Of a stretch of DNA of 64,000 nucleotides, positions 1-63,972 are shown in pieces; within the stretch, counting starts at the first letter, position 1; each line of letters opens with the position of its first letter. The position numbers were made by a program, and so were the translations under genes. The notes beneath the pieces are model-generated. The model saw only the letters and a list, made by a program, of their open reading frames with translations. It searched no databases and was not told where the DNA came from. The DNA lies in NCBI RefSeq assembly GCF_029227915.1, contig NC_079879.1, forward strand, positions 13,516,001-13,580,000. Reading direction: 5' to 3'. Source of the stretch: Hydractinia symbiolongicarpus (Eukaryota; Cnidaria; Hydrozoa; Anthoathecata; Hydractiniidae).

Positions 1-1435
1 AGTTTAGAACGTAGAAAGGCATGGTTGGCAGCCATAAAGGAAGTAAAATTGGTCAGAAAAGCAGATTGAAAATGCCAGATTATGCAGTGCACATTTTATA
101 AGTGGTACGTTTATACATAGTATATAACTATTTTACAAAGATTGACTGTTTTTTAAGTGATAGGATTAGCTAAGCCTGTAGCTAATTAGCTAGCATGTCA
201 GGCTAAATTTTGTTTAGCTGACATTGTTTTAATAACTTTCTTTGTATATATATAGGTGACAAGTCAAATGACCCAAGCAATCCTTATTATGTACCATCTG
301 TTTTTGTATACAAAAAAATTAGAGAAGAAAAGTCAGAACAGCTAATGGGGCGATATGAACGGTTGAAAAGAAGAAGGCAGCACAACAACTGAAGATGAGC
401 CAGGACCTTCAAAATGTGCTAATTTAGATTTTGAACATTTTGATTTTTTAAACAATCAGGCAGTTGATGAGACAACCCAAACAGAGCTAGATACTAGAGA
501 TTGCTTAATTTTGCAACTTAAAAATAAAGTGACACAGCTAACTGCAGAATTAAATTCAAAAGGTATCAACAAATTAAAAAAACCTAAAAAATAATGTTCT
601 CATACTTTGATGTTAAGGATGATCCAAATCCAAAGAATTATTTCAATAGATTTTGTCCCTCATAAAGAATAAAAATATTACGCTATCACCAAAACTTGTT
701 GCTGAGGAGTAATTGTTTCTAGTTCTGGTTAAATTATGACTTGGTCTCCTACATATCGATATAGCTTATCGTGTTGGTTTAAAGATTTGCGATATTAGTA
801 CTATTTATCGTCAATTGGTTGTTGTTTTGGCTAAAGTGTTGGAACCTTTAATTATATGGCCAGAGAGAGATGCTGCGCAAAAAAATATACCAACTGATTT
901 TAGAAAATTCAAAAATTGCAATTGCATAATTGACCGCACAGAGATATTCATTGAAAGGCCATTTAATCTGAATGCTAGAGCTCAGACTTGGTTAAATTAC
1001 AAGAATACAAACACCATAAAGTACTTAGTTGGAATATCGCCTGCTGGAGCTTTAACCTTTTTATCTCAAGGCTGGGGTGGAAAAGTTTCCGATAAGGAAA
1101 TAACAATAAAATCAGGATTTTTAGATAAATTGGGACATGATGACTGCATACTTGCTGATAGAGGGTTTACAGTTGCAAATGAAAATGCAACAAAAGGTGC
1201 CATTTTGAAAATTCTAAATTTCACCAGAGGAAAGTCTCAGATGACTGGAAAAGAAATCGATGAATCACGTGAAATTGCGAAATATACGAATTCATGTTGA
1301 ACGTGTAATTGGTCATATGAGAAAGTTCAGAATACTTTAGTCTATTATACCGATAAATCAAGTAGATTTAACAAACAATGCCATGGTCTGTATTTGTGGT
1401 CTTGTCAATCTAAACAGAAGTGTTGTTCCTAATAA
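1..1435 (+). pseudogene. Decayed THAP-DDE transposase (PIF/ISL2EU-like DNA transposon)
   Basis: Remnant of a cut-and-paste DNA transposase. A first piece (1-about 69) reads like part of a THAP domain (RRKAWLAAIKEVK) and then hits a stop. After an intron-like TATATAG acceptor near 255, the frame GDKSNDPSNPYYVPSVFVY is the typical THAP C-terminal part. A stop/frameshift near 393 is followed by a coiled-coil-like stretch (QLKNKVTQLTAEL) to about 593. The DDE_Tnp_4-type catalytic core is open from 815: first Asp in CNCIIDRTEIFIERP, second in CILADRGFTVAN. The third acidic residue lies in RIHVERVIGHMRKF, but it is reached only through a +1 frameshift near 1283, followed by an internal stop and an end at 1435 (SVVPNK). 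At least three lesions make it inactive. The family name is inferred from the THAP-plus-DDE_Tnp_4 architecture; no terminal repeats or target duplication were located. Confidence 0.85.
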
Positions 1436-1492
1436 ATAATATTAGTTATAGTATTATATATACATTATATACGTTTTGTAACATAATGTTCA

Positions 1493-1911
1493 TTAGTTTT
1501 TATATTTACATTCTGAACAGTACCATTTATGTTTTGGAGCTTTAACAACTTTCACACATGAATAGTGAAACCATTCTATTTTGCAATTTTTTCCATCACA
1601 TGCAATCATAGGTGGAAACGATGTTCTGCGACTTAAAGTTCCATTGCTGTCTGAAAACACTTGGTGTGTTTATAAGATAATTAATTGTTGAGATCACCCC
1701 AGCCAATATCTGGTAGTAATCTAACATCAGATTTCCAATCGTTTAAGGAAAGTGGGTCTGGCAATTGAGTACCATGAGACAATTTTAATTTCTTTTGATA
1801 TTGAATTTGATTTTTGGTATCTGATGATTTGAAGTACTCAGATTCACTCCATGTGCTAGGCATGCTTCGCGTTAATAGTGTGTTTACACCACGTGTTTCT
1901 AAATAAAACAA
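1493..1911 (-). pseudogene. Second ORF of the THAP-DDE element, ending in a PHD finger
   Basis: Convergent with the transposase remnant and only about 60 bp from it. The upstream open part (1911-1681) encodes MFYLETRGVNTLL...DIGWGDLNN. After a frame break or intron near 1690-1650 the C-terminal piece reads MIACDGKNCKIEWFHYSC, then VKAPKHKWYCSECKYKN and a stop at 1493. Spacing of C-D-C, WFHYSC and WYCSEC is that of a PHD zinc finger, whose family role is reading histone H3 tails. Elements of the ISL2EU type are known to carry a second gene beside the transposase. A transposon-borne accessory protein is therefore the best reading, and a host gene is less likely because nothing continues upstream. 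The body of the protein is not recognised. Confidence 0.6.
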
Positions 1912-4457
1912 ATGCGCATAATTATTGCTAATTATGCTAGCGCTATCAAGTTATTTCAAACTAATTGGCTTAACAACTTCTAAGTACAATGCAACGTGTA
2001 ATAATGGCAGATGAAGAGGTGGCACGCTTTCTTCACGTAACTTCTTCTTTTTGCCTGCCAGTGTCCTTGTGCGTCCTCACGGAGATAAACAAATGACGTC
2101 ACTTTAAAAAAGGTCTATAGGATCGTGCTTTCCACAAATGGTTAAAGAGATGTTGGGTTTTAAATTCTGTTAATGACGTCATTAACCCATCTGTTCCAAA
2201 ATGTGTGTGTTGGCCGAATTTGGAAAATTGGTCATATGCAGGAGATGACTTCAGTTATTTCTACCTATATATCTATTTGGCCCCAAGCCCAAAAAAGTGC
2301 AATGCAATGGCTTCACTAATCTTATTTGATGAATTGTGCTGTAACTTGTTGAAAATTAACAATTAAGACATTTTTTGGCTACATCAAAGGAAAATAAAAA
2401 CATCTACTTTGCCTGTCACAGACAGACACATAGTTTTTGTATTATAAGAGATAAAAATCAAGTCAAAGAAAAGAAACAACCACAAACAACACCAGCCTGA
2501 TACAGGATTTGAAGAGAACTTACATTCTGGATTGTTCTTACTTTATGGGAAACTTCTGACTTATACGGTAACAATTATTTTACCCTACAGTTGTTTTTAT
2601 TTTACTCTATTTTGCAGGAAAATGTGAGACTCGTGGACTCAGTTTTTATTACATTTAAAAAATGTTTTGCCTTTTTATTATATTTTGAATTTGTAGAGTA
2701 ATAACTTTTGCAATTGAAATATTTACACATAAGTATATAATTTGGCAAATTCAGTAAAAAATTGTGAAAAAAGGCCAAATTAATACGTATCCCAGAAAAT
2801 TTTATAAAAATTAGTACGATTAACCCTTTTTGTATTGGTGGGGGGATGATCAGCCAAACCCCCCCCCCCCTGTTTAACTTTTTTCATAACTTTCTATGTT
2901 TTTTATATTTTTGCTCCTTAATTTTTTTTCTAAGTTCTTTTCTACCCCTCGCTTACTGTCCAATAGAAAGCATTAAATGAATTTCTTGAAAAGTTGAAAG
3001 ATATACCATAACTGATCTAAAAAAAACCCTGGTTGTTTTTTAATTTTCAAGATTTTCAAGATCAAGGGCATCAAGATCAGCGGCATTTATTGACAACTTG
3101 GGTTTAATAGAGTCTTGGTACACGATATGCCTACCTAAAAACTGTTAATTCAGTCAGCGCGTCTCCTTATTTCCTTGATTTGTTTGTACTAGAAAATTGA
3201 AAATAGTTGCGAATCTACCAAAAGACACATGCCATGTTTTGGTTAACTCCCTTTTTAAAAATGCAAATTACAGTAATGTAATTTTTTGGAGAAAATTTAA
3301 AGCCTGGTAACCCAAAACTTTCTGTGTTTTCTTGGGGCTAGTCCTCTGATCCCCATTGGCCTTAGCTAAAAGGGTATGTTGTTTGTTGTGTAACGAAGGA
3401 AAGAAACATGATCAGAATATGTGCTGCACAATTTTAGTACTGATTAGTGCCAAAAACTGCCAATCGCAGGTTATATTATACAATTAGCTAGGTATACTTA
3501 GCTGGTTATGTTATGTTATGTTTTAATTTTCTAAAAGTTTAGTATTTTTGATGGTGTGGCGTTGTTTTGAGTCGTTTCGGCTTGTTTTGAGTGGTTTTGG
3601 TTCATTTTCGGTTGTTTTTAGCTTACATTAAATGTACACTTATTTTATAACCTTAAAACCTTTAGGGGACTTGTTTTAGTATCATATTGCTATATTATTT
3701 TTTTTTATATTTGTGTAACTAATTTTTTAACATTCCAGTGCATTTGGTGATGTCATTGTCAAAAATGCTGGCATCAGCAATTTTTTGTCTAGTCTGGTCA
3801 GGGTTATCTTCGAGAGGCAAGAAGAGAGGAGTTTTGAAGGTCATACCTTAGTGTGAAGGGCTGATTGTGAAAATCTTGTAAGGCTGCAAGAGTGTCAGGT
3901 GTTGTTCATAGATGTCAAAAGCATCTGGATATACTGTAGTTTAGTCTTACCAGATTATAAATGATGGTGTCATCCTGAATGACTGGCAGTCGAGTGTAAT
4001 AGTCAATTGTTTCACTTAGACTGTTAGTTAAAGAATTTTTCTGTATCTCTCAAGATATTAGTTCTACTATAGAATTTAAGATGCCAGTCGTGTCAAGCAT
4101 GATTGGCATTGTTTCACAAAACAGTAGAAAAATGACAATTCTATCAAACTATGTGGCAGATTAAGTTTTTTGATTTTTGCGAAGCTTTACAAATAAAAAT
4201 GAAAAGGAACAAAAAACCAAAAATCTAGAACAAAAATAAATAAAAAAGGATAAATTCTTGTTTTCCAGCATTTTGTTATAAGTTTTTCAACATCTCCAGG
4301 GATTGGTTGAAGTAAATCCCACTACGGTGACTTCTTTATCAAATTTCAGTTTAAGTTTTAAAAACTATCAACTATGTAATATGACTTGTTGTTCAAAGGT
4401 ACACTTTGTGTAATTACACATTTTTTGTAAAAAAAATTGTTAATCCCTATCTTTTAG
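1912..4457. other. Intergenic or 5' intron of alpha-catenin, repeat remnants
   Basis: No protein-coding exon is recognised. It holds a Helitron end fragment (about 2115-2451) and a G-run/C-run repeat (2837-2870). The missing first exon(s) of alpha-catenin, encoding about the first 105 residues of the family, were looked for here and not found. They probably lie upstream of the window. Confidence 0.5.
2115..2451 (-). mobile_element. Helitron-like fragment (5' end retained)
   Basis: This stretch matches the left-terminal half (minus orientation) of the two Helitrons at 31838-33288. Shared landmarks are the TGACGTCATTAACCC-type block, the GTGCAATGCAATGGCTTCA block and the end TTGTATTATAAGAGA followed by host T. 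Read on the minus strand the element starts TCTCTTATAATAC, the expected Helitron 5' TC. The 3' CTAG end is missing, so it is truncated. Confidence 0.6.
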
Positions 4458-7400
4458 GTGATGTAATGAGGGCCTCATCTCGTGAATTTGCAGCTGATCC
4501 AATAACTGCACCAAAACGTAATTCAATGATACGTGCATCCAGAGCATTGTTATCTTCAGTCACCAGGCTCCTGTGTGTGGCAGACATGGCTGACGTGTAC
4601 AGGTTGCTAACAACTCTCAAACTGGTGCGATGTAGTTTAAAATACATTTTCTAACTTGTTTTGTTTAATGTGATGTTTCCTCTGTTATTTATTTGTTGTT
4701 ATGTTAATTTTTATTTTTTTTCTCAAGGTTGATAAAAGATTAAAAGAACTTGAAAAAGCGCAAACGTCTGCTGATTTAGTTCAATCATTTAAGAATTACG
4801 GTGATGATTTAATAAAATTAGCAAGGTTGGCTGGTATTCGACAGGCTGTAAGTAGCTATAAGTCGTACTGAGTCTTAAAGGTAAAGTGTAAGCAAGTACT
4901 TATATTAGGTAACAATTCATTGCCACTCTTCTCCTTACAGGATTTGAAAGATCTAAGACATCGGGAAGAAATGGCAGCAGCACAAGCCACATTGAGGAAA
5001 TCGAGTAGAATGCTGTTAACAGCATCAAAAGTATATTTTTGAACATATATTTTTAACATTGTGTTTGCAATAGAACTAATGACTACGTTTGCTTGAGAAG
5101 CACTCCTTAATTAAGCCAAGTTAAATCAGTCTCCATTGTCTTTTCTTTATTCAAAGTCATTGAAAATCAAAAAGATAATAAGGTTAACAAATCTGACTTT
5201 TAAAAAATAGTATTTGTCTTTATCAGATGCGCAAGGACCATATCCTAGGGGTTGTTACTCATTGTCTGTCATTTCCAAGAATGGGTTGATATCGGATTCA
5301 GGTTCTACTGCTGACATCAAAGGGTCAATATCTTTGTCATTGTTACTGGACACCTTTTATGGGAGAAGGGTTGACTTAAGAACAAGATGAGCAAAATTTC
5401 TTCAATGTTTTTGCCATCAAAACATATTCGCAGGAAAATGGTCAAAGGTATGGGCCTAAAGAGATATCACATGTTACGAAATTTCTGATCCATAGATGTG
5501 CTCAAGTGTTCATACAGTCTCATCAAACCACTATCGCTGTTTCCCACTTATGCAGGGTGTCCTGAAAATACCATTATCTGTTAAATTAGCTGTGGCAATG
5601 AAGAAAAACAACATGTTAATTGATAGATTCAGAGAACTTGTAAACAAACTTAAGAAAGAGCTGACAGACGAAATAATTGTGGACTCAGTTTCTTTTGTTG
5701 ACTTTACAGAAATCAAAGATCCTGTCAGTGATACAGAGAACAAAACAGTGATCCTTCAATGTAAGAAAACTATTGGAAATATTCCCAAAACGACAAACAA
5801 AGCAGATGATCAAGCCAGTAGCAAGGGAGCAAAGAACATAAGAACTTTTTTCAAAACACTGCTGAAAAAATAAAAATGAGGAAAAAGGGAAAAAACTAAA
5901 AAATATAATAGTATTCAATTAGATTTTTAAAGATGTAGCTAATTTTTTTTCCATATTTTATGTTGGAAAATATTGATAATTTGGCCTTGCAAAAATTTCA
6001 TGCTACAGCCCAAATTTTTATAAAAAATCTTTCCTAGGTCACAAAAAATAGGATTTTTTTCGGTGCATTTTAATTTTGCAATTCACCCAAAATTTATTTT
6101 TTCAGGCATTTTGATTTCACAGTTTGTGATAAATCCATTTTGCACAGCATTTTAATTTTGTGTTTTTTAGGTCTGACCGCGAAATCACGAAAATTTCTTG
6201 CCACAAAAATCTCTTGCCTTAAAGTAGTTTCCTTCATCAAACTCTCTACTTTCCGTGTTTGGTTTTGCCAATTTAAAGCATTTGTCATTTGTTGACTTGA
6301 ATTTTGAGAACATGAAATCAAGAAGGTCAATATTAACAATAAAAACTAAGTTTCGTTTCTTCTAATGCATTTTCGAATTTAGCAAACAGATATTGATATC
6401 CAGAAAAATTTTTCTTTTGGACTTTTAATTTAAAGCTAGAAAATTTCCCATTATCTGTTATACTTGTTGTTCGAGTAACGGGAAACTAACTGAATAGGGC
6501 ATTGTTGTGGAAATACGAGTGCATTTAACCAGCAGTTACGTTCAGCACGTCTACAATCAATAATATGATGGAGATTAAAATAATCTGCGCCAGCTACTAC
6601 AGTACAACCATGTTGATAAGATGTTGATGCAGAGTGAATTGTTTGGTATACCAAGTATTTAAACAGGTTTTGAGTCATTCAACTTTTCAAGACTCTAACA
6701 ACTAATTTTATCCCTACCGATTGTTCAGCAGCGTTGTTGTCGACGTATTTATCTTTATTCTACTTTGTGTTTTTTTTGTCGTTGTTTACTGAGATATCTT
6801 TTCTTCAGTCAGTCTTCTTTGTCAGTTGTTTCCTCCACAATATAACAGTTTACTACTATGTAACTGAACAAATACTTTAAGATAATGGTTGATTCACATT
6901 TATTTGATAATATAAAGTAATTTCTTAACGTAGGAAACTGTCGACCACAAATGCACACTGTTACAACATATACAACACAAATACAGTAAATATATACAAA
7001 AAAACTGTTACACACGATTAACAGATAAACAAAACAACGGCATGCATCACTATTATGCACAACGAAATCAGTTTCTTAGACATTTATAATTAACATGACG
7101 CCACACGGTACAACACACGAGCATAAACACAACCATGACGCCACACGGTACAACACACGAGCATAAACACAACCATGACGCCACACGGTACAACACACGA
7201 GCATAAACACAACCATGACGCCACACGGTACAACACACGAGCATAAACACAACCATGACGCCACACGGTACAACACACGAGCATAAACACAACCATGACG
7301 CCACACGGTACAACACACGAGCATAAACACAACCATGACGCCACACGGTACAACACACGAGCATAAACACAACCATGACACCACACGGTACAACACACGA

Positions 7401-10400
7401 GCATAAACACAACCATGACGCCACACGGTACAACACACGAGCATAAACACAACCATGACGCCACACCGTACAACACACGAGCATAAACACAACTACTAAT
7501 AAATAATGATCCCTCCGAAATCCCACTTTGTCCATTTTAACGTTGTTGAGTTTTCAGTAAACTTGTCAATGCTTATTGTGTAATTTGTAGGCACGTTTGA
7601 AACATCCTGAAGTGGAGTCTGCATACAACAACAAAGAATTGGTTTTCAAAGAAGTAAAACATGCGCTGTCTAAAATTGCTGACACAGCACAAGCGGTGGG
7701 GCGGGGTGAGCGACATCCATTTGAAGAAATTGGTTTTCTTGCAAATGCACTGGACGAATTGATGGTTTGTGTTTTTTGTCTTTGTTTTATAATGAAAATG
7801 ATCCCAGCCTTTTACAGTAAAAGACCATAATTTGGAAAAAAAACATTTACAGCTTTCTTTTTTTTTTCAAGCCATATTGCTATTTCCTTTTTAAATACCT
7901 TTTTAGACATCACCTCGTTGCCCCTCATAAGGCATTTCAATTTTTTTATCCAAAGAATCCTTTGTGCCCACCCCACCTCTTTTACAAATATTTCCCAAAT
8001 TTTTTAATTTAATTGCTTTTCAAACTTCTTAACAAGAAGCCCTGGGGGCTCTAAGAATTTCCGCGCGCTACCAAAATATTTGATGAAAACCTGCTAATTC
8101 GTTGTGTTATTGTGCCAAACATTCGAAGGGGTTTGGTGCATGAACCTCTGAAGATAAAGCCCATCAGTGACATTATATCTTACAACAAACGCAAACAAAA
8201 CAAAACGTGTCATAATAAACTCACATTTTAAAAGAAATTGCTAACAAAAAATACAGCCTATCATTCATGGTTGAAAGTCTTGCGATTGAGACGTTTATGG
8301 TCTTAAACGGCATTAGTTGACAAAAAATCAAAATTTTGATGTAACCATCATTTTCAGCATACTTTTTTTTATTAACTGTGTCAATTTTTGTCGAAAATAA
8401 AGCAGTTTTAATTTTTGGATAAATTTTGGCCTGAAATGACATTTAGGTGACAAAAAATCAAACTTTTGTACCATCCTCATTTTCAGCATACTTTATTTGT
8501 TAACCGTGCCAGATTTAGCCGAAAATGAAGTGGTTTTAATTTTTGGACCAATATTGGTCTAAAATGGCATTTAGGTGACAAAAATCAAAATTTTGATGTC
8601 ACCATTATGTTCAGCATACTTTTTTTGTTAACTTTGCCAATTTTTGTTGAAAATGAAGTAGTTTTAATTTTTGGACCAATTTTGGCCTAAAATGACATTT
8701 AAGGTGGCAAAAAACCGAAATTTTGATGTCACCATCATGTTCACCATACTTTTTTTGTTAATTGTGCCAAAATTTGTCAAAAATATAGTAGTTTTAATTT
8801 TTGGACCAATTTTGGCCTAAAATAACATTTAAGAAACAAGAAATCAAAATTTTGATGTCACCATCATGTTCAGCATACTTTATTTGTTAACTGTTCCAAA
8901 TTTTGTTGAAAATAAAGTAGTTCTAATTTTTGGACCAATTTTGGCCTAAAATGACATTTAGGTGACAAAACTCAAAATTATTATGTCACCATTATGTTCA
9001 GCATTTTTTTGTTAACTGTGCCAAATTTTGTCGAAAACCCATACCAATTTTGGCCTGAAGCGTCAATACTAGACTTCCCAGTAGTTAAGGAGCTTGGGTA
9101 CGAAGTTTACATCTGTGACGGACCAACGTGAAATCCCAGGGTCGATTTTTTTTCAAAAATGCTCCGAAAGAAAAAAACGACCGTTTTAAAGAATTTCCTA
9201 CGCCTTCGGGCGCGGAAATTCAATAAAATCGCTTGAACAAAGTCGAAAATGGAAAATGAACTATTAAAAACGTGATATTTTACTATGCTTTTATTATGTT
9301 TCCTTCCCTGTAGGTGTACTCGAAACTCCCCCCTTCCTTTAAACCTGGGCAACCTTATCGAATTGTTTTTGTGATCTACTTAACATTAAGTGCATACACT
9401 ATTTAAATTTCTTATTCGTCTAAACAGTCTGAAATTTAATGCTTTTCAAGTGCGTAATAAATCACTTTTTCCCTGAAACTGTCAATCAGTTTATTTACAC
9501 TTCATTTTTGTATGGATTACACTAATCTTTTTTTTTTCAAAATGTGCGAACATTGAATGTTTTGTTTTCACATAATAAACAGTTTTTTGTTGTTGCTGTT
9601 GTTGTGACGGCATATTCAGTAAGTAGTTTATAACAAAGTTTAAACTGCATAAAAATGTTGACAAAATGGAAGGATCTTTGGTGGATAAATATATGGAGGA
9701 ATGCAAGTTAGATTTTTATATGAATGCTTTGGACACTGCTGTGGTATGTTTGGAAAATTGTTGAGCTGTGAAATTGTTTTTAATATAACTTTAACCACAA
9801 GCTTGTAAGTACTTGTAAATGATCCAAAAAAACCAACCTACTTGCGTATGTTCTTAGGCACAATTAGATCAAGAGCCTGAAGAATTTTACGATCGTAAAG
9901 TTCAGTCCACCCTGCAGACACTAGTAGATGATATTGTTGGAGGAGCTTCAAAACTAGCTGAGACTGTGTGTACGAGAGATGTCACAAGGGAAAAGATATT
10001 TACAGAATGTAAAAATGTGAAATCTTCTTTGTCAACATTGCTTGAAGAATGCAATGAGGAGGTAAAAGTTGTAATATTGTTTATTTTTTTTTATTTTTTT
10101 TTTTGTCATATCAGATATTACATTTTCTTTAAAAAGTTTCCCAGTTTCCCATCTATTCCGTACGTTTTACTGAGTTTCTTTCAACGAGATGCTTATTTAA
10201 TTTTAGCAAAACTTACTGCTCATAGAAGCTGCAAAAAGTTTGTTTCAGTACTTAAATAAATTAGTTGTTAGCCTGTGGGAACATTAACGGAAATTCACTC
10301 GTCGTTACTCGCAGCCACCATTATTGGCTTACAGACAGACAAGGGGTGTTCTAGTATAAAAACAAAAAATATAATTATTTTTAGCTGGATGATATTTAGA

Positions 10401-13400
10401 TGAAGTATAGTAAACGCCTTGTTCAATTTTTTAGAATAAAGATAATCCAGAGGAAATTGATGCTGCAATAGGAACAGTTGAAAATGATGTGAAGGATTTG
10501 TCTAAACAGGTAAAATTCACTTTCCAATGCACGGTTTTATTGTCAACGTTTGCCTCGATAACTCAAATACAGTTCTTTGTTGTCTCTCTTCTGTCTCTTC
10601 TAATGTTTTGTTTTTCTTATCTTTATTTGTTTGGGAGCAAAGTGTGCTTCATAATTTTAGTTACGTAAATCTGTCGCCGATCATTTGTCAGACTCTTTCA
10701 TGGATGCCAGTTCTCCATTAACATTGCTTATTGAGGCTGCAGAGACTGGTGATCAGAAAAAAATTAAAGAATATTCTGACAGGTTTTCCAAGCATGCAAG
10801 AAAATTATCAGAGGTAGATTTTGAATTACCGCATTGCATTTTAATTGTTTTGTAGTATGTAACGCAATGTTACCTGGGTACTTGGAACATTGATGATCGT
10901 TGTCTTTGTGTTTAAAGTTAAAAAATGACGATTAACGATCTTTTAAGTATACATACTAGTTGTTTTATCGGACATAGACAGTATTCTGTAAAAAAATTGG
11001 TTTTCTAATGGCTTTTTGTACTGTAGTACACGCTCTTTTTTATCAGAATACCAAAATTCTAATCTTTCTATGGCTATTATTCTGGTTTCTTTATTGTTCT
11101 AAACAATAGACGTCTATTTCTTATATTAATACAAAAGCTGTATCTGTCTGTCTGTGACCGGCAAAGTCGATTATATTTTGTACAATTTTCCTTGAAAACG
11201 ACTTTAAAATATCTTCTATAAATGTGCCGTATTTTATAAAAGTTTTGTTAAGTTTTTAATTGGCTAGAACTCACGTGATTTAATAAAATGCTATTGTATT
11301 GTGATTTGTCGCGACGAGTTTTAAAACCACGGGTAATGTACAAGTATTTAGTTAGTGAACCTCTTCTTATGAATAACACTTTTCCTTTTTGTGTTCTTAG
11401 GTATCCACATTAGCTTGTACTTTATCAGATAACGCTGAAGGAGTCAAAATGGCCAGGATTGCAGCTAGACAACTCGATCTTTTTTACCCGCAGGTATGAT
11501 TCCTCTCTCTTTATTGACGACTTAATTTGTGTATACTTATTGAACAATTTTTTCTATAATTATTCATTTATTTATTTATTTATTAGGTTCTAAGTGCTGC
11601 GACCACACTCGGTGCACGACCACATAGTAAAGTTGCGCAAGAAAACATGGACACGTTTCGTGATGTATGGGAAGAACAAGTGAGGCTACTCACCGAGGCT
11701 GTAGACGACATCACCACAGTAGATGACTTCCTGATCGTCTCTGGTAAGATACTGTATTTGTCCACCAGTGTGTCGAAACAGCTTTGATACAATGTTCTAA
11801 ATCTTTAATCTTTTACGAAATTTGCAAGATAAACTTTTTCGGAAGTTATAATTTGGAACTTGAGAGAGAGAGAGAGAAATGATTCGTATTTTTAAATGTA
11901 GATCAATCTTGTCAATTTCTCTACTAGAGGGTCACATTTTGGAGGACATCAACTTATGTGTAAAAGCAGTGGACGAGCGTGATGTTGAAGCATTAGATTT
12001 GAAGGCAGGCGCTGTTCGCAGTCGCATCACACGAGTGAGAGAAGTTGTTTCAGCAGAAATGGAGAATTATGAAAGTGGACCTTTTACAGAAGCAGTCAAT
12101 CGCTCTGTGCATATTATGACAAATAACAGTACGAATAGTTTGTATTTTCTTTGTAGTTTTGTTTCTTTTTGTTTCTTTTTAATTGTTTTTTTTGTTGTTT
12201 GTTGTTTGTGCTTTCAGTTTTTTTGTGTTTTTGTTTATTGTTTGTTGTTAATTTTGTGTATTTGTTTTTGTTTAGTTTAGTTTAGTTTGTTTTGTTTTGT
12301 TTTGTTTTGTTGTAACCTTTACTTGTTTTTTGTAGTAATGCCACAGTTTGTTGAATATGTCGAATATCTGATCGAAGCGTTAAGCCAAGCTACTTTAGTT
12401 ACTGACACTGACAAGAACTCATTTATTGACGCTGTTAGACTTGTTTACGAAGGGATGAGAGATATTAGAAAGTCTGTTGCAATGAGGAAGGTATGGACCC
12501 GGTACCTTAAGGGCTACATGCGGTATTACTTTGTGCTAACAAATGGAAGTTTTTTTTTTAAGCCTTCGAGTGATTCAGAGAGTGAATCTGAAGACGATTG
12601 GGATCACGAAGAAACGTTGCTGAGCAAAATGGCGGATGCGCTAGCAAAACGCAAAGAAAAATTTGCTTACCAGCAACTGAAAGCCGGAGGTTTGTTTTTA
12701 AACATTTAAGAAATTAGATAAAATAATAAATTGTGTTTGACTTATCAGAAAATAAATAAATAGAGCTGTTAAATAAAATTTACTTAATATCACGATACTT
12801 TATCCTTAGGAAAGGTTCAGTTTGAACTTCATAGTGAAGGGCGTGACGACCCAGGCTGTCAAGGTATTGCGTCCATAGTTGTAAATGGTGTGGAGCATTG
12901 TCCCAAAAAGCAAGGTCACAATGTTGTTGTGTTAGATAAGGTTGGAGATGTTATTTCCACCAAGGCTTTCGATACGGCGGAACATCGCGAGGGCGCTGCA
13001 ATGTCCAAGTACCTAGAAGATATACCTGAGGACCACGTTGCACTGATTGCTGTTCAAGGAACATCAGGTACGTTAAGGAAACGTAGTGTAAATGTATGAT
13101 TGGTTTTCTGCATAGTCTAACTTTTCATGTGTTTACTTTTTACTCGGCTTTAGGGGAGGGTGTTAGCGCTGCAAATTCCGCTTTGAAACGACTTGGTGCA
13201 GTGGAGCCTATCAATCCTGGACATGGTTGTTCTTGGGCATTTGCTGGTTACAAAGGAAATCACCGCGATAAAAGCTGGGTGTCGCAAATTTACCGACCTC
13301 GTTACCAGGGTCCGGCCATGATTTCTGATACGATCAATACACCCGCAGCGGACATGGGTAAGGTATATTTCTATTGTGCTACTCACAATGCCTGTCATAT

Positions 13401-16400
13401 AAAATTAAATTTTTCATGCTCTGTTTTGTTTCTGCGCAGGCAAAATATTGGTAGAAATCAACTCAGAAGGTGCTGAAGATGAACCCTACTTACGAAACGC
13501 ATCTATCAAAGTAAACGGAATCGAAAGATGCCCCGTGGGACGCGGAATGAATATAGTATTGCTGGATAATGCTGGCAATTACTTAATGTCGAAGAATTTT
13601 GATACTGCAGATCCACAGATTGGTCCCAGTGAGGGCTACAAAATGAAATTGTTTCTTGATAATCTTCCCAATGGAAGAATTGTTTGCTTGTCATCTTTAG
13701 AAAACGTTGGTAAGTTGTCTCCAGTAAAGAAACTGCTCTGCTCTACATCATGTTCTGCATTTTACACAGTGACAACGAGAACTGATTATTTCAGGCGATG
13801 GTATGAAAGAGATTGTTCCCGCTCTCCTTAACATTGGCGCAGAACTACCTCTTAATCCGAGTGAGAATGGCTCGTTGGCCTTACTTGGATACACTGGTCC
13901 CAAAGGAGCGGATTGGGTAAAGCAAGTTATTAGTAAGAGAGGCGAAGGTCCATCAAAAATCGTTGAATTTTTCATTACACCAGCTGCGGAGGAGGAAGTA
14001 AACGAGGGACACGAAGTGTTGTCAGACTATGAAACGATTAATATGGATGATTTGACACGCGATTCACAAACTGATAATAAACATACTGCTATCAAAAGAA
14101 GTGCACGGGTAAGTAGCTGGTCGTAAAACGTTTTTCCTGATTTTCTCAGTTTTTTATAATAGCGGATTTTTATGAAGTTGGTATGACGTCATAGTTTTTG
14201 TTACGATCACTCGTCAGTAAACAGAGGACAGGAGAAAAATCTTTTTATGTGTTTGTTTTTGTTATTATATTTCTTATATTTCTCGCTTGTAAATTACTTT
14301 AAGCATTACATTCCATCGTTATTTTTACCGATTATGATATGATGATATAGGTCTTCGTACACTGGATTTTGTCAGGCATTTTTTTAAACTATTTTCTCGG
14401 TCGAAATATCACATGGTACCACTTACCCTACCCTTCCGTTTTTTACTTGTAACTTCTGTTTGCCTGGCTTATTTTGCTTGAAACTTTTAATAGCTGAGTT
14501 TCTGTCTATATGAATTTGATTTGGGAAAAAAATTAAAGTTGCGCCCTCAACAGGTGGCCAGCTACGCCCATATTTCTAAGGTCCCTTATGCAAAAATTAA
14601 ACATAATTTTTTTTAGAATATAAAGTGAATTTTACGATATATGGTCAATATATTAGTTTTATATTTTATTGTGTAGTGTTTACGTCTTTATTATGCCCTC
14701 ACATATTATTTTGCGCCAAGTGGGTGTAATTTACACCCGCATTTTGCGGCAAATCAGTTTTTATCGGTTTGGCACCCCATTTTTGGTTTAATTAACAGTT
14801 CTAGCACAATAGGCACCTTATTACATAAGTGTTGCCCTAAATAACATTAAGACACAAATTTGCTAAGTATTATATAAAAACTGTTTTGAAATTTCCATAG
14901 TCAACATAAGATAATAAGATAATAAATATAGTAATTTTAGCGCCTCAATAACATAATCGGTAGACCTGTAATTAAAACAAAGGACTAAAATCAAATATTC
15001 TAGAAGAAAAAAATTGTGCAATTTGATCTTTTAGAGCATATTTGCATATTATATACTCAAAAAAATGAAAACCAAGCAATTTTTATAATTTTGCTGACGT
15101 CAGCAATTTATCACGTGACTTAAACTAAACATTTTTCCGCCATTTTAATTATTTTATGTCAGTTAACATTTGTGCCAAATATTTTTCAAAATAAGCAAGT
15201 AGATCAGAAAATATAGGGGTAGGGCATTTTTGCCACCCCCCCCCCCCCCCCCCACCCACAACCTTTGACCAGGTCACTCAGACCCCAACCTAAATAGGGT
15301 TAAACAAGAACTACACATATCTGAATTAAAGTAAAGCTAAACTAGCAAAAATTCCCATAAAACTACACAATATGACAGGTTTGAATTTGGAAAAATAATT
15401 CAACAAAAACCAATACGGACCTGCAAATAGCTTTAATAGCCGACCGGGAGAATATCCCAATAATCTTACAGAGATATTGGAAATGTTATCACCATGTCTT
15501 CATTAATTTTCGCGGGAAGTTTTTTTTTTAAAAACTCTGCATTACCCTACGGTTTTGCTCTATAATTTGTGTAAGAAATTTCGAATAATGATGGACATGT
15601 AAAAAAACACTTGTTATTTAATTTATTTTTAATTGTCTGTAGTATTTTTTCCATTATGTAAAGTTTTCCCTATATGCTTGTAAGAAAAAAAAGTAACTTA
15701 TAACTTGCAAAATACATTAATAATAACAAAAGCTATTTTGTCCTCGTTTCAGTAAAATATTTTTAAGATTAAAATAATTTTTTTCATGTTTCAGTCTGTG
15801 ATGAGAGCTCTTCCTGAAGAAGAGAAAGCCAAAATCAATAAACTCGCTGAAGGTTTGACAGTGGAAAAGAACCGTCTGATAACAGAGGTAAATAAATGGG
15901 ATGAGCAAGGCAATGACATTATTGTGTTAGCAAAGCGGATGTGCATGGTCATGATGGACATGAGTGACTTTGCAAGGTGAACTTTTTTTCAATTTATAAG
16001 GACGTGTATGTACAGTATACTTCCGATAACTCGAATTTTCGAGGAATTAAGTTTGTTTTTTCTTGTTTTCTGCGAGTCGAACTCAAACAAACTGTACACA
16101 TTCATTGAAAATATTTTCTAAATGTGTTTTATTAGTGTTTTTTTTTTCTATTTTTTCTTAAAGTTCAAGTTATCGAGTGTTTTTTGATCCAGGAAACTGC
16201 TAAAATAGTTACTTAGCGAGTGTTTGTATTATTGGGGTACGACTTATCGATTGATTGTTATAAAAAATATTAGCGAAGGTTTAAAGGAAATTCGAAAACA
16301 GTTCCAGTTACTGGGGTTAAAATGAACAGGATCATACTCTATATTCTTTTTCTTTAATAATAGAGGTTCGGGTCCTTTAAAGACGACCATGGATGTTGTT

Positions 16401-17737
16401 AGAGCAGCTGAGGTAAGAATATTTCGACTAATACTTGAACCCTGTTCTTTCCGGGATATAGGGGACAAGTGTAATGTGGGATGAGGTGCGCAAATGCCCT
16501 ACTCCTTGTGTTGGATTGTAAGTCATAAAACGTAGTGCGAATGTTGTTAGAAATCATACCTTAAATGCTGAAGTCAGCATTTTTGTTGAAACTCTAGTTT
16601 TAAGAGATCTATTGATTGGCATATATTTGCAGTAATATTTGGTCTTTCAATTCCATAATTATATAAAATCAGCCATCAGGAGTCTTAAGGTCATTGCGTT
16701 TACTGTATTTCAACCAATTCTCATCGTGCAACTGTTGTGTCACGATTCTAGTGTGACAATCTGTTATGCATGTTGTGCAGTTTATTTAAAATGCGAGAAA
16801 AAGCAAAAGCTGCACATATCGCGCGACATTTAGTACTACTGTTGTGCCATGCTGTGGAGATGTTATATCGTTCGACTAAAAACACGTTACTGGATAGTCA
16901 AAATGGTGAACGACAAGTGTTAGCAATGTGTCATTAGACTGTGGTACGATGGCAGTGCAACAGTCGCGCTATAATAAAAGTTTAGTGGAAACCAAGCTAA
17001 TAAATTTAATCCTTTTTATGTGTAGAAAATTGCGAAATATGGAGCTCAGATGAACAAATTGGCTAGTGAGATTGCCGAAATGGTAAGACTGTTTCTTTTT
17101 GAACTTGTCACAAAGAATAATGGAACTATTTGGATATTTTGCTTTTTTAATTTTAGTGTCCACATAGTCACACAAGAAGCGACTTACTTGCATATCTTCA
17201 GCGTATAGCGTTGTACTCACATCAACTGACTATTACCGCGCGTGTCAAATCTGATGTTCATATGATCAGTGGAGAGGTTATCATGTCGGGAGTAAGTTTT
17301 AAATATGCACCAAATTAAGTTTTTAATTTTAACTCACTCACATTTGATGTCTACATGATGTATTTGCCGTTCTTATTATTATTCTGTGTTTTTTTTAGGC
17401 TGAGAACGCAACGTCTCTAATTGAAGCTGCTAAAAACCTGATGAATGCTGTCATCTTGACGTTAAAAGCATCTTATATCGCTTCCACAAAACATAGAACT
17501 GACGGAGTAAGTAAATAACTTTTTTGTTTGTTTGATTGTTTGTTTGTTTGTTTGTGTTCAGAGTCGCCTGTATGTATTGCATCTTTTTTCCAGTTACAAG
17601 TTGTCAGTTGGCGCATGCGTGCTCCTGAGAAGAAGCCGCTGTTCAAGGTTGACACTCTCAACAAAACCCGTCCTATTCGTGCAACTGACTTTGATGTAGC
17701 ATCCTCGCCAACTGAAGGTTTGAATGATTTCTTGTAA
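4458..17737 (+). CDS. CTNNA-like: Alpha-catenin with two inserted ILEI domains (N-terminus off window)
   Basis: Cytoskeletal adaptor linking cadherin/beta-catenin to F-actin. Exons: 4458-4624, 4728-4847, 4941-5030, 7591-7764, 9858-10061, 10435-10509, 10661-10813, 11401-11493, 11587-11743, 11928-12128, 12336-12490, 12563-12689, 12810-13067, 13154-13357, 13440-13709, 13795-14108, 15795-15976, 16364-16412, 17026-17082, 17157-17291, 17399-17506, 17594-17737. All phases agree, giving 1144 residues visible. Residues 1-529 are the N/M helical bundles (RALLSSVTRLLCVADMADVY; NIQ-type LTLLIEAAETGD). Residues 530-545 are the acidic Ser linker (SSDSESESEDD). Residues 572-725 and 726 to about 876 are two ILEI domains. 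Residues 921-1144 are the actin-binding domain (NDIIVLAKRMCMVMMDMSDF, LLAYLQRIALYSHQL, APEKKPL). The family is normally about 900 residues with no ILEI domain; the 391-residue linker region is the novelty. About 105 N-terminal residues are missing upstream. Confidence 0.95.
5496..5873 (+). pseudogene. Unassigned ORF tail in intron, probably mobile-element derived
   Basis: Open frame of 125 codons, same strand as alpha-catenin, not spliced into it. The C-terminal part is Lys/Asp-rich (MKKNNMLIDRFRELVNKLKK, FVDFTEIKDPVSD) and ends KGAKNIRTFFKTLLKK and a stop. The end resembles a PIP-box-like I-x-x-F-F motif at a disordered C-terminus. Upstream the frame is broken but other frames keep protein-like text (FLIHRCAQVFIQSHQTT), as in a decaying gene. 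No family is recognised. Confidence 0.3.
7096..7495. repeat. 40-bp minisatellite, about ten copies, in alpha-catenin intron
   Basis: Unit of 40 bp built around CCATGACGCCACACGG then TACAACACACGAGCATAAAC. About ten head-to-tail copies are nearly identical; single changes (GACACCACACGG near 7379, CACACCGTAC near 7465) mark individual units. Because 40 is not a multiple of three and the unit lacks stops on the minus strand, three long artificial ORFs appear there; these are not genes. Confidence 0.95.
8239..9120. repeat. Repeat element with six internal ~129-bp tandem units
   Basis: The left part begins GCTAACAAAAAATACAGCC. Then about six units follow, starting near 8317, 8448, 8573, 8705, 8835 and 8962. 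Each contains GACAAAAAATCAAAATTTTG, TTCAGCATACTTT, GTTAACTGTGCC, a TTTTTGGACCAATTTTGGCC block and AAATGACATTT. The right part ends GGTACGAAGTTT then CATCTGTGACG. A one-unit version of the same element lies at 42593-42845 and again at 47451-47703. It lies inside the alpha-catenin intron 7765-9857. Confidence 0.85.
9666..9743 (+). CDS. Possible alternative first exon of alpha-catenin
   Basis: An ATG opens a 26-codon frame (MEGSLVDKYMEECKLDFYMN, ALDTAV) ending at a GTATGT donor in phase 0. It would join cleanly to the next catenin exon at 9858 (AQLDQEPEEFYD). The exon before it (7591-7764) already joins 9858 in phase 0 and matches the family there, so this one is not needed in the main transcript. 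It could start a shorter isoform lacking the N-terminal beta-catenin-binding part. No promoter evidence; speculative. Confidence 0.25.
12491..12562 (+). other. 72-nt stop-free phase-0 intron (possible exitron) in alpha-catenin
   Basis: The intron has a GTATGG donor and a poly-T/AAG acceptor. It is 72 nt long, a multiple of three, in phase 0 and without a stop, so retention would add 24 residues (VWTRYLKGYMRYYFVLTNGS then FFFK) exactly between the M domain and the acidic linker. Confidence 0.5.
12563..12689 (+). other. Alpha-catenin acidic linker exon (phosphorylation-linker equivalent)
   Basis: This exon starts PSSDSESESEDDWDHEE, then a charged helix (SKMADALAKRKEKFAY) ending phase 1 at the ILEI module. 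Vertebrate alpha-catenins carry a CK1/CK2-phosphorylated Ser/Thr-Asp/Glu linker at the same place, between the M and actin-binding domains. Several Ser-x-x-Glu/Asp sites are visible, so CK2 control is plausible but inferred. Confidence 0.75.
12810..13357 (+). other. ILEI domain 1 inside alpha-catenin (two exons)
   Basis: Exons 12810-13067 and 13154-13357, both phase 1 at each end. Core motifs: IASIVVNGVEHCP, GHNVVVLDKVGDVISTKAFDT, DHVALIAVQGTSG, ALKRLGAVE and GCSWAFAGYKG. These line up with the FAM3/PANDER ILEI pattern (GLNIALVNG...AFD, LVFVASYDDP, LFSELGS, DSWVFVGAKG). In known proteins (FAM3, POMGNT1, CEMIP/TMEM2) the domain is extracellular or luminal; in POMGNT1 it binds glycans. Here it sits in what should be a cytosolic protein. 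The function in this setting is unknown. Confidence 0.88.
13440..14108 (+). other. ILEI domain 2 plus C-terminal acidic linker (two exons)
   Basis: Exons 13440-13709 and 13795-14108. Motifs: NASIKVNGIERCP, GMNIVLLDNAGNYLMSKNFDT, GRIVCLSSLENVG, ALLNIGAELPL and GSLALLGYTGPKG. The domain ends about VEFFITP. The rest of the second exon encodes an acidic spacer (PAAEEEVNEGHEV...) leading in phase 0 to the actin-binding domain. The internal intron falls at the same site and phase as in domain 1 (after the SG/VG following the third strand). That indicates duplication of a two-exon unit. Confidence 0.86.
14109..15794 (+). other. Alpha-catenin intron 3' of the ILEI module, repeat-bearing
   Basis: Contains no exon. 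It has a poly-C run (15236-15253) in a repeat that also ends AAATAGGGTTAAAC, matching the family at 2837 and 61504. It also has a 17-nt perfect palindrome GGGTGTAATTTACACCC at 14722-14738. Confidence 0.7.
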
Positions 17738-18928: not shown

Positions 18929-21900
18929 ATGAGTGGCAACGACAGGGGGTATTTTGCTGAACCGTATGAACGAAGTGAAGGTAATCGTGCTTATTCTCCT
19001 CAATATGAATGGGCTGATCGCAGAAATCGCGAAATTGTAAGTCCGAGAGAAGAAAGATATACTAAAAGACGTTCCCCCACGTCTCCCACCACATATCGAA
19101 CAACTGAACAGAATCCGTCCAGCTATGATGATCAGACTAGATTAAGAAATTATTACGGAGATGGTTCTAACTCGCAATCAAATGATTATGGAGGTAATAC
19201 CTCAAAAGCGTATCAACAAAGTGAAAAGCAAGCGAATTACCAGGGCTCGTATGGACAAAATGAATATAACAAAAATAGTTCGCAAATCTATTCTCAAAAA
19301 ACCTTGAGTCCTCCAAGTTATCGTAAAAATGAATACGAAAATACCGCTGGATATGGCCAGCCTGGTGAAAACGAATATAACCGTACTAATGCTGGTTCTT
19401 ATGGAGAAACCAGTGGGAAGAGTAGACATTCCCCTGCGTACGAATCTACTAGCAGAAGTGGTAGGTCGGCCCCCTCTGAATCTTTCAGAACTAGTCAAAA
19501 TGAACAATCAGGAAAGGCGCCTAACAACGATCGAGATTCTTACCGTCATCGAGACTACAATAAAGATATACCTAGCGCGAAACGTGAGGATGAAAATACT
19601 AAAAACAGTAGTGCTAAACACAAAAGTAAAAGATCAGGTAGAGAAGTTGGTAAAATAAAATCATCGAGCAAAGACTCGAATAATTCCTACGGGGATACGT
19701 CCTTTGACAGAAGATTGTCCAATTCAATCGCAATGGCTAACGCTCACGAAAGATATAAAATTAAAAATAACAGTAAAGATAGCATCGAAGATGACGGCAG
19801 CCGATCATTTGATCGAAGATTATCGAACTCGATCGCTCTTCCCAATGTCCATGATCCTACCAAGCGAAACAAAACTTCGTCGATACCAAAACAAACAAAG
19901 ACTCCAACCAACACACCCATTAGAACGTCAACGAAGGAACAACCATCCAAAATAATTATAGACGAACCTGTCTCAAATCTAGATGTGACTGGTGAAAAAG
20001 CGCGATTGCTGTCGGTTCGTAGGCTGGACACTCCTGATCCGCAACGAAGAATGAGTGACGCAAATGAATCAGACACTTCATCTACAATATCTGATTCCGA
20101 CGATTCTCCTGATGTGTTTTTACCAAAAAGATATATTTTAGCTATTATGATGTTCTTAGGTTTCGTGAACATGTATGCGATACGTGTCAACTTAAATGTA
20201 GCAATCGGAGCTATGGTGAATAATCACACATTAATTAAAGGAGGTGTGGCCTCGGTAGAAGTAAGATTTTTCTCGAATTTATTTTTTTTTTAACGAATCA
20301 TTATGTTTTTTATATTTTTATTTGTAATTTCTTTTTTCTTTAAGGCTCCAGAATTTGATTGGTCGTCTAGATTGCAAGGTAAAATATTCAACCCTAAATT
20401 TTCTACGGTACCAATATGGCTATAACGGTGGCGGTAGGGGGCAGAACTTCCTTAAGTATTTACACAGCGTGGAATTAGAGGGTAGCTAGTTGTAACTTAT
20501 TTCCGCCAATCACGGTATAAATTCTTGGAAAGTTTTGGATTTTTTTTTAAATGCTAGAAAGTTAACTTTTCAAAATGCGCAGCGAACAGTCGATTCTTGT
20601 TAAGTATTAATCTTTAAGGGCGTGAAAATTGTCTTAACTGTAGAGTGAATAAAATAACTTCGGCAAATAAATTTTCTTTACTTCAACCGAAGCATTTTAG
20701 TTTAAATGAGACGGATCAAATCTTAATGGTAATGAAAATTACAAGTTACCAGGAAAGAATGTTCAACTATTCTTCCCTTCTATCTGCAGGTGTTGTGCTC
20801 GGTTCGTTTTATTATGGATACATGGTGCTTCAAATACCCGCCGGCTATTTTGCGATGAGATTCGGTGGAACGAAAATATTCGGCGTGGCAATCTTCTTAG
20901 CATCCCTTTTTACACTTGTAACGCCCTTCGCAGCAAGGTTCAATGTCTGGGCGTTAGTCATTCTGCGAGTCTTAGAAGGATTGGTGTTGGTAAGTCATTA
21001 TTTTTAACAACCCCGTTCCCTGAGATTTTACAATCATAGACAAATGTAATGAAACAGCTCGGTTAATTTTGAATTTAGCCGTCACAGGTGATGACAATGG
21101 TTCTTTTTATTTTAATCGTGCATTTTAAGCTTGTCAAAGTCCCCCTTGTCAAATTCCCCCTTGTCAATGTTCCCGTGTCAATGCTCCCTTGTCAATGTTC
21201 CCGTGTGAATGCTCCCTTGTCAATGTTCACTTGTCAATGTTCACAGCGGCCTTAGAACTTTGGGTCTTAGAATATCTCTTGAAATATGCTAATTGTTGCT
21301 GACGTCAGCACGATCATTTTTCCTGAATTTCACAACCTTCATGACGTGGATTATGTTGTTGTGTCGATACACACTAAAAATTCCACTTGCAAAATTTACA
21401 CTCTCACTACCTGGCCTACTATTTTAACCATTTGACCGTTTTGACAAATGACGAAAAACCTTGTTTCATTAATTCTGTCCATGATTGTAGATATTAGATC
21501 AGAGGGGGAAAAGAAGCCCTGGCGACAAGGGTGTTCTAAACAAAAACTTGAAACGACTAAGAAAGCGCCAAGATGTTCTTAATTTTCTAAATATGACGAT
21601 AACTTGACTGAATCTAGAGTGAATACAGAAGTAATCTGATTGAACAGCTGTTTCCGAAGCATTTCTGCGTTGTGATATAACCATTGACTAACATACATTT
21701 TAGGGTGTCATGTTGCCATGCAACCATCAGATCTGGAGCTTGTGGGCACCTCTCCAAGAGCGAACCACGTTAGTAACCATAGCAATTGCTGGCATGAACG
21801 TAGGAACGGTAGTCACCATGCCTCTAACTGGTTTATTGACTAAATATGGTTTTGATGGAGGCTGGGCATCAGTGTTTTATTGTTTTGGTAAGCAGTGCGA

Positions 21901-24167
21901 CGAAGCTGTGCTGCTTATTTACTTATTTGCTTATTTAAATATTTGTTTTCTCGTCTTGTTTGTAATTTAATTTGAAATCAATTTTAGGAGTATTTGGAAT
22001 ATTGTGGTTCGGTTTATGGGTATGCATTGCTCACCCCTCTCCAGCATCGCATCCCACCATCTCGAAAAAAGAAAGAAAATACATCGAAAAAAATGTAACC
22101 ACAAGAAAGGTAGGGATTTTGATATTTGAATGGTTCTGAAAAATAATTTCGTCCGTCACAGTTTAGCGGTGATGGATTGTGATTGGATTTTGCAAACAGT
22201 CCTAAGGACTATATGTTATAGAGGAAAAAAGTTGCTCATCAATTTTTTTGATTTTTGTAAGATATTTAGTTTCATCTACATCCTTGGTCAAAATATGTTG
22301 AGACAACACAAATAATTTTAAACTTTTCCGTCACAAGTAATTTCATCACCACAAATAATTGCGTAGCCTATTTCTATATTAGGTTCACACATTTGATTTG
22401 TCAAATTTTACTTGTCAATAATCAGAGCGGACTTAGGAGCTTAGGTTATTTGGTTAAATCCAAACCTTCGTGGGCCAAGAATGTTAGTTAGAAACTTTTC
22501 AATGCTGTCTGTCTATGTGTGTGCAAAAGTAGCGACTTTGAAGCCTGCCGAGTGCAGCGCAATGACTGTTTGATATTTTCATCTATTTTAAAAAATATTT
22601 AAAAAATAGGCAAAAACTTTTTATCCCAGATTGTAGATACTTAAATTTATTTTTTAAAAATCTTGCAAAATTAAATCTTGGCATAGTAAAGTTTGGATTA
22701 TTTTTAATTACAGATGGAAAAATAATGTCGTGGCTTGAGGTAGAGCGTTGGCCTCCAGTGCGGAAGGTCTTAGGTTTAAACCCTGACCGAGTCATGCCAG
22801 AGACTATAAAAGTGTGAATTGATCCTTTCTACTTAACGTTCAGCATGAGAATAGGATTGATATCTTAGGCGGTTGTCTAGTTGAGCGGTTGTTGTGCTTG
22901 CACGCCTTCCGTAGCTTGAATGGGAGCCCCTTCGCAGGATTCTCATCGATAAGAGTTCCTATAGAAACTGAAGAGGCTATCCTGGTTAAATAATAGTAGT
23001 AATAATAAAAATAATAATACTTGCTTTTTAGAACGTTCGTTAACGTTCATGAGCATTTAAGCTCAGATATGAGATATTCTATATGGTTATGCTAAGCCTT
23101 AGTACCTTTTTGATGTGTGTGTTTTGCACTGTTATATGAGTATTTACACTCAATACTCTACACGGTTATTTTATTCTCTTAAACTTATTTTCTCATTTAG
23201 AGCATGAGTATCCCATGGAAAGCAATGTTAAAATCGAGACCAGTATGGGGTGTGATCATCGGAAACGTGGCAAACGATTGGGGCTTGTACACTATCTTGA
23301 TTTGTTTGCCTCTATTTTTGATGGACATTATGAAATTTAACGTGCAAACTGTAAGATGTTTATAAATTTTTTTTTCTAATTTAAAGGTCTGGCATTTTTT
23401 ACAACTCACAACTCTATTTAGATGGGCTTCATAGCATCGCTACCATTTTTATTGAAAGCTATTGTCGGACCAGTAGGTGGATTAATAGCGGACATTCTTC
23501 GTTACAAATACACCAGCACAGCTAACGTAAGAAGAATCTTTTATGCTATAGGTAAGTTTAAACATCCTTTCAATCGCGTTTCTCATTTTGTTAGATGTTA
23601 TCTGTAAGTGATATATTACTTTAGGCGCAATGTCGGCTGCCGTAATGATCGTCATCGCCGGGTACAGTCACACACCTACCATGGCTGTGATCAGCATGTG
23701 TATAGGCGTTGCCTTGTCAGGTTTGCTACACAGTGGCTATGAAGTTAATGTGTTGGATATTGCACCATGCTTATCTGGAGTAGTCATGGGTATCTCGAAC
23801 ACTGCTGGAACTACTACTGGCTTCTTGAGTCCGCTTCTTGTTGGATATATGACAGAAAACAAAGTAAGCCAATCATTGCATTTTTTTTCTTGTAACCACA
23901 TTTTATGCATCTCACTAGACACTAGCAGTTCCTTGTCGTGTGTCATCAGTTTAGGCATGTTTTTCTCAGCTCATACGTGACTTGTTTACTTTGTTCATTT
24001 TCATGTTTATTTAGCTTCGATCAGAATGGGTGACTGTATTTTGGATCACATTTTTCATCTACCTTATTGGAACTGTTTTATTTTGTTTGTTGTTATCTGG
24101 AGAAGCACAACACTGGGCACTCGATGAGGATGATGACAAAGAACACGATGTTCATCGAAGACCATAA
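18929..24167 (+). CDS. SLC17A5-like: SLC17 family (sialin-like) anion transporter with long N-terminal extension
   Basis: Major-facilitator organic anion transporter of the SLC17 group (sialin, vesicular glutamate and phosphate transporters). Exons: 18929-20260, 20345-20378, 20790-20989, 21704-21887, 21988-22109, 23201-23350, 23422-23551, 23625-23863, 24015-24167. Phases agree, giving 847 residues. From about residue 395 the MFS core starts: PKRYILAIMMFLGFVNMYAI, then RVNLNVAIGAMV, NHT glycosylation site, LGSFYYGYMVLQIPAGYFA, LRVLEGLVLGVMLPCNHQIW, SLWAPLQER, DIAPCLSGVVMGISNTAGT and a C-terminal GEAQHWAL. Family proteins are about 500 residues, so the first 390 residues (Ser/Asn/Tyr/Arg-rich, no membrane helices) are an extra cytosolic tail. 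The chosen ATG is the first in a long open frame after the 5' region. Substrate cannot be told from sequence; sialin-type by overall similarity. Confidence 0.93.
21128..21246. repeat. Short-period minisatellite in SLC17 intron
   Basis: About six or seven repeats of a unit like CCCTTGTCAATGTTCC, with small variants (CCCGTGTCAATGCTCC, ACTTGTCAATGTTC). It is followed by ACAGCGGCCTTAGAACTT, which has a diverged partner near 22408-22450 (ACTTGTCAATAATCAGAGCGG...), so the array probably belongs to a dispersed element. Confidence 0.7.
22728..23020 (+). mobile_element. tRNA-derived SINE in SLC17 intron
   Basis: Pol III promoter-like boxes are visible: A box TGGCTTGAGGTAGAGCG at 22731-22747 and B box GGTTTAAACCC at 22773-22783, with spacing typical of tRNA-derived SINEs. 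A unique body follows, then a 3' tail of TAATAGTAGTAATAATAAAA-type triplets (22988-23020). Sense orientation within the intron between SLC17 exons 5 and 6. Confidence 0.75.
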
Positions 24168-28097: not shown

Positions 28098-31837
<3,740 letters not shown>

Positions 31838-35158: not shown

Positions 35159-38857
<3,699 letters not shown>

Positions 38858-42845: not shown

Positions 42846-42856
42846 AACGTCACAGC

Positions 42857-47703
<4,847 letters not shown>

Positions 47704-63647: not shown

Positions 63648-63972
<325 letters not shown>

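Follow-up and report, generated by a model that had tools for sequence, protein, structure and literature searches.

An alpha-catenin of Hydractinia and other cnidarians with two ILEI-fold domains ahead of its actin-binding domain

A 64,000-nucleotide stretch of the Hydractinia symbiolongicarpus genome (the window), placed by a genome search at C5:13516001-13580000, carries an alpha-catenin gene whose product almost certainly has two ILEI-fold domains in the linker between its M domain and its actin-binding domain. This architecture, which a sequence-only reading of the window had proposed, was confirmed by a Pfam search, a splice model and identity with an archived protein. On the forward strand, 18 exons between 9858 and 17737 with AG/GT borders and in-frame joins (Table 1) encode 961 residues, identical residue for residue to residues 286-1246 of P0001, the archive protein "catenin alpha-2-like isoform X2" of the same species (1246 residues). 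Four further exons lie upstream at 4458-7764, the end of the second (4847) being set by the residues of P0001. The gene begins outside the window, as residues 1-104 of P0001 are coded about 5 kb upstream of base 1.

The chain matches the Vinculin-family profile PF01044 with an E-value of 2.7e-175 (585.6 bits, cut-off 38.1), and the M-domain and actin-binding-domain folds of alpha-catenin are both present. Among the matches listed, the protein is 46-50% identical to bilaterian alpha-catenins, and no row of the 180-protein tree described below is named vinculin or catulin. The ILEI profile PF15711 (cut-off 27 bits) finds two domains, at 60.0 bits (E = 3.3e-16) and 50.0 bits (E = 4.3e-13), both between the M domain and the actin-binding domain. 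In the predicted structure of a coral relative, the ILEI region matches the folds of the POMGNT1 stem and of FAM3A, FAM3B and FAM3C. Antibody chains that matched at E-values of 0.06-0.17 were dismissed as chance.

Four of the five exons first assigned to the ILEI module do encode it, in frame, each domain being spread over two of them. The fifth (12563-12689) encodes instead an acidic stretch followed by a likely helix, which is visible in the predicted structure of the coral relative P0005. The module occupies residues 675-982 of full-length P0001 and not 572-876 as initially numbered. It is followed by a second acidic linker, the counterpart of which is disordered in the predicted structure of another coral relative, P0012. 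The M-domain exon 12336-12490 ends in phase 0, and the five-exon block 12563-14108, flanked by phase-0 introns, amounts to a frame-neutral 391 codons; the four ILEI exons by themselves are not frame-neutral. Both ILEI domains begin at a phase-1 intron and both are interrupted at the same place by another phase-1 intron. Repeated 1-1 exon pairs of this kind are a common trace of the exon shuffling of extracellular modules. Two other features lie within the gene. A possible alternative first exon at 9666-9743 (ATG, GT donor) is in frame with exon 9858, and its end, FYMNALDTAV, resembles FLANALDELM at the end of exon 7591-7764; its use would yield an alpha-catenin without the N domain. A transposase fragment (DDE_Tnp_4) is found at 740-1297, ahead of the first alpha-catenin exon in the window.

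Relatives with the same fusion were found in other hydrozoans and in anthozoans. With the ILEI region as query, 17 proteins were listed: 11 alpha-catenins with the module and six others (five with F5/8C domains and one Notch-named model). The catenin part was searched twice, the second time with an alignment of eight carriers, and the best 120 of 422 and the best 120 of 1102 matches were retained. Our own ILEI profile matched 19 of the 186 proteins gathered: 13 alpha-catenins and the six others; the module is missing from the other 167 alpha-catenins. Eight of the 13 carriers are assigned to a species (of Hydractinia, Clytia, Orbicella, Actinia, Stylophora, Actinostola, Desmophyllum or Dendronephthya), and all eight are hydrozoan, hexacoral or octocoral. 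The other five are 60-95% identical to their nearest species-assigned carrier; by identity and by the trees, P0002 was treated as hydrozoan and four as anthozoan. With the module removed, one branch with a support of 100 separates the 13 carriers from the 167 non-carriers (FastTree, unrooted). No cnidarian-named protein without the module appeared among the best 120 of 422 and the best 120 of 1102. The carriers have about 1250 residues; bilaterian alpha-catenins (alpha-E, alpha-N, HMP-1) have no ILEI domain and, among the matches listed, about 860-1000 residues. The best-supported reading is that the protein represents a cnidarian form of alpha-catenin. A novelty confined to hydrozoans is ruled out by the anthozoan relatives, and the module is lineage-specific, as had been suggested, in a wide sense only, since hydrozoans, hexacorals and octocorals all carry it.

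That two loci were joined by an error of assembly or annotation is practically inconceivable: nothing was found in favour of it, the splice sites are intact, the splice model is identical to P0001 and the module recurs in 13 alpha-catenins, several of them on separate genomes and contigs. An optional cassette, by which the frame-neutral block would be skipped in some tissues to give an alpha-catenin of ordinary length, has a precedent in the linker isoforms of vertebrate alpha-catenins, and the label "isoform X2" implies further annotated isoforms. Such skipping is nevertheless quite improbable, as the 167 ILEI-free proteins all fall outside the carriers in the tree, and the full protein of 1262-1280 residues is encoded on contigs of 4.0-5.1 kb, as it would be on spliced transcripts.

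Searches of the Hydractinia genome covered 481 Mb in 76 contigs. With a clam alpha-catenin as query, ten matches were obtained, nine inside this gene and one on another contig (C4:21051068, locus L009), the latter with 45% identity over 53 residues within a stretch of further weak alpha-catenin matches. L009 contains a Vinculin-family piece of 24.8 bits, below the cut-off, and is presumably alpha-catulin. Cnidarians have alpha-catulin, according to the available text of PMC13245172. No sign of a second, ordinary alpha-catenin was found in this genome with the one protein query, on which the statement depends that Hydractinia seems to have a single alpha-catenin gene. The ILEI profile gave 12 matches genome-wide, two of them in this gene. 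Two ILEI exons on contig C4 (L003 and L004) resemble, by eye, two copies of the POMGNT1 stem.

The age of the tandem was assessed with a tree of 41 ILEI domains, comprising the 13 first and 13 second catenin copies and 15 domains from the six other proteins. The second catenin copies group together (96/92), and the 15 non-catenin domains stand apart (100/100). Hydrozoan and anthozoan copies separate inside both the first-copy and the second-copy groups, so the tandem is most likely older than the split between these lineages. Judged from these trees, a single tandem predating the Hydrozoa-Anthozoa split is very probable.

The source of the tandem was most likely an extracellular ILEI gene. The catenin module has its fold and Pfam family in common with FAM3A, FAM3B, FAM3C and the POMGNT1 stem. 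FAM3 proteins are secreted and POMGNT1 resides in the Golgi; no hydrophobic leader is present in the four catenin N-termini inspected. The five cnidarian tandem-ILEI F5/8C proteins, three of them from Oculina patagonica, are 33-36% identical to the module and end in the same C-terminal extension, W..Q...GP. All five have a hydrophobic leader (by eye), most of their domains have the cysteine pair and ligand triad described below, and, unlike the catenin, no vinculin-family domain is listed for them. As cnidarian extracellular ILEI genes possess the C-terminal extension of the catenin module, an origin from FAM3 or POMGNT1 seems less likely. Locus L011 on Hydractinia contig C1 is of extracellular type and may be a living relative of the donor; its positions 424-5649 contain MAM domains next to an ILEI domain. 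Its MAM exons adjoin ILEI, unlike in the catenin, and we infer that both belong to one gene; like most catenin copies, its ILEI pieces have no complete triad.

The ILEI fold could suggest a sugar-binding function. As described in the available text of PMC9802357, N-acetylglucosamine (GlcNAc) is bound in POMGNT1 by Arg129, Asp179 and Arg207; FAM3C and Fam3L2 bind GlcNAc, and Fam3L1, without Asp179 and Arg207, failed to rescue as Fam3L2 did. The triad is complete in POMGNT1, FAM3B and FAM3C and in 14 of the 15 domains of the six non-catenin relatives, a comparison set found by similarity. In the catenin it is complete in one copy out of 26 (ILEI1 of P0002), a count unchanged when Glu is accepted for Asp179. 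Asp179 is present in 4/26 copies and Arg207 in 2/26; Arg129 is kept in all 13 second domains. The two copies of the window have Q/G/G and R/E/N at these positions, and neither is complete. The sequence-only reading had suggested a ligand- or glycan-binding-like module in the force path, which could for instance read cytosolic O-GlcNAc. The match to the POMGNT1 stem, the conserved Arg129 of ILEI2 and the intact triad of P0002 speak for such a reader, but the rarity of Asp179, Arg207 and the full triad, together with the behaviour of Fam3L1, makes it very improbable, and the triad count rules it out as the principal explanation. The residues thus speak against GlcNAc recognition of the POMGNT1 type in the catenin copies, which may bind other ligands.

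The catenin domains also differ from their relatives in their cysteines. Two cysteine columns are filled in 15/15 and 14/15 non-catenin domains versus 1/26 and 0/26 catenin copies, one of the 26 being cut short at those columns; the pair, near the domain N-terminus, is accordingly found in 14 of the 15 and in none of the 26. Between hydrozoan and anthozoan carriers (three by five rows), identity is 48% for ILEI1, 45% for ILEI2, 49% for the M domain, 60% for the N domain and 65% for the actin-binding domain, and falls to 37% and 27% in the flanking linkers. The ILEI domains are roughly on a par with the M domain in conservation.

According to the available text of PMC7588230, beta-catenin and actin exert a pull on alpha-catenin, and the linker ahead of the actin-binding domain is likely stretched by this tension. 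The insert lies, as anticipated, in this linker, the presumed path of tension, and the ILEI pair would have to transmit whatever passes there. As there is no complete known lectin site, a folded spacer with a contact surface is the simplest reading. ILEI-tandem exons would have entered the gene between the M domain and the actin-binding domain before the Hydrozoa-Anthozoa split, and the domains would have kept their fold without the cysteine pair and nearly always without a complete triad. In the predicted chain order of M domain, helix, ILEI1, ILEI2, acidic flexible linker and actin-binding domain, the pair would always be present as a folded spacer of two domains, placed in series along the force path. 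It would determine how far and how freely the actin-binding domain can move and offer surfaces to other proteins, and the affinity for F-actin and the coupling of junctions would be tuned as a result. Taken whole, mechanism included, a cnidarian alpha-catenin whose ILEI tandem tunes actin engagement is the best explanation, and one we hold to be slightly on the probable side.

Extension by unfolding and tension-gated docking are bolder forms of this spacer reading. In the first, the ILEI domains would unfold at junction forces and act as an extensible shock absorber, adding at most roughly 100 nm to the chain (308 residues of about 0.36 nm each) and capping the load on the actin bond. The position of the module in series between the M domain and the actin-binding domain suits this, and with the cysteine pair a possible brace is gone; conservation near that of the M domain suggests a role beyond length, however, and we regard unfolding as unlikely. 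In the second, the pair derived from extracellular proteins would dock a cnidarian partner in a tension-gated manner and make the protein a junction mechanotransducer of a distinct kind, fixed before the Hydrozoa-Anthozoa split and with no ordinary alpha-catenin as backup, so that cadherin-actin coupling would be unlike that of the listed bilaterian alpha-catenins. This proposal is speculative and rather doubtful.

Several observations weigh against the account of an ancient, extracellularly derived spacer. The alignments of FAM3B and FAM3C span 533 to 798-808 of the structure model, which is unexplained. A different cysteine, absent from the 15 non-catenin domains, is kept in all 13 first catenin domains, and these first copies group only weakly in the ILEI tree (74/36). 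The catenin tree, with a warning on the long branches of P0001 and P0003, is unrooted, lacks rows named as sponge, placozoan or ctenophore, and has its midpoint root among the carriers, so that a cnidarian gain and a bilaterian loss are not separated. The best 120 of 422 and the best 120 of 1102 include no protein whose name assigns it to scyphozoans, cubozoans, myxozoans, Hydra or Nematostella. The L011 pieces score about alike against the catenin copies (58.5 and 51.2 bits) and against the other proteins (57.0 and 43.9 bits) and thus single out no donor. Arg129 is missing from six of the eight other ILEI places in Hydractinia (L003, L004 and six in L011-L014), being kept only in the POMGNT1-like L003 and L004, and the MAM-linked ILEI of L011 lacks both Arg129 and Arg207. 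Loss of the triad is therefore not peculiar to the catenin copies, which weakens the idea that it was lost when the module became intracellular.

In the archive such proteins are filed as ordinary catenins (catenin alpha-2-like) with both Pfam domains attached, so that the claim of an undescribed architecture holds only in part. Clarke et al. in 2016 are said to have described a "novel insert" affecting F-actin affinity in the Nematostella alpha-catenin, reportedly between the N and M domains; it may correspond or be related to the present one. If it were the ILEI module, the tuning of actin engagement would gain support and the novelty would be lowered. ILEI domains in alpha-catenin were found in no title or abstract among the papers listed by the literature searches, most subscription papers being out of reach, so that absence in print is unproven; nor is ILEI mentioned in the available portions of PMC11613877, PMC13245172 and PMC3141441.

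Downstream of alpha-catenin, the window contains a major-facilitator transporter exon at 20618-21004 (MFS_1, 37.2 bits) and a second, weakly matching MFS_1 piece at 23612-23977. A protein-kinase exon (Pfam Pkinase, 35920-36246) adjoins a near-perfect tandem duplication of 37990-42857 and 42848-47715 (offset 4858, 99.6% identity, 18 mismatches), which reflects either recent duplication or a doubling in the assembly.

Table 1. Exons of the alpha-catenin gene and tandem repeats in the window
Feature	Position	Strand	Basis and remarks
Exons, part of N domain, P0001 102-227	4458-4624, 4728-4847, 4941-5030	+	Match to P0001
Exon, end of N domain, P0001 228-285	7591-7764	+	Match to P0001
M-domain exons, P0001 286-631	9858-10061, 10435-10509, 10661-10813, 11401-11493, 11587-11743, 11928-12128, 12336-12490	+	Splice model, Pfam, P0001
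Pre-ILEI linker exon, P0001 632-673, not ILEI	12563-12689	+	Phases 0-1
ILEI domain 1, exon one	12810-13067	+	Pfam PF15711; phases 1-1
ILEI domain 1, exon two	13154-13357	+	Pfam PF15711; phases 1-1
ILEI domain 2, exon one	13440-13709	+	Pfam PF15711; phases 1-1
ILEI domain 2, remainder (5' part of exon 13795-14108)	13795-13988	+	Pfam PF15711, P0001
Acidic post-ILEI linker (3' part of exon 13795-14108)	13989-14108	+	Splice model; ends in phase 0
Exons of actin-binding domain and C-terminal tail, P0001 1023-1246, stop TAA	15795-15976, 16364-16412, 17026-17082, 17157-17291, 17399-17506, 17594-17737	+	Splice model, P0001
Tandem repeat, 40-bp unit x10	7094-7493		
Tandem repeat, 128-bp x5.7	8313-9037		
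Tandem repeat, AT x72	28198-28342		
Tandem repeat, 23/137-bp	50578-51286		
Tandem repeat, TTA x35	63649-63752		

Few components of animal cell adhesion are as highly conserved as alpha-catenin, and this core part looks rebuilt in the carriers, which include a hydroid, corals, sea anemones and a jellyfish. It offers a case of extracellular-type domains moved into a protein that is cytosolic elsewhere. Cnidarian models serve as stand-ins for early animals; with a conserved two-domain insert in what seems to be the sole alpha-catenin of Hydractinia, results obtained in vertebrates and flies may not transfer to them.

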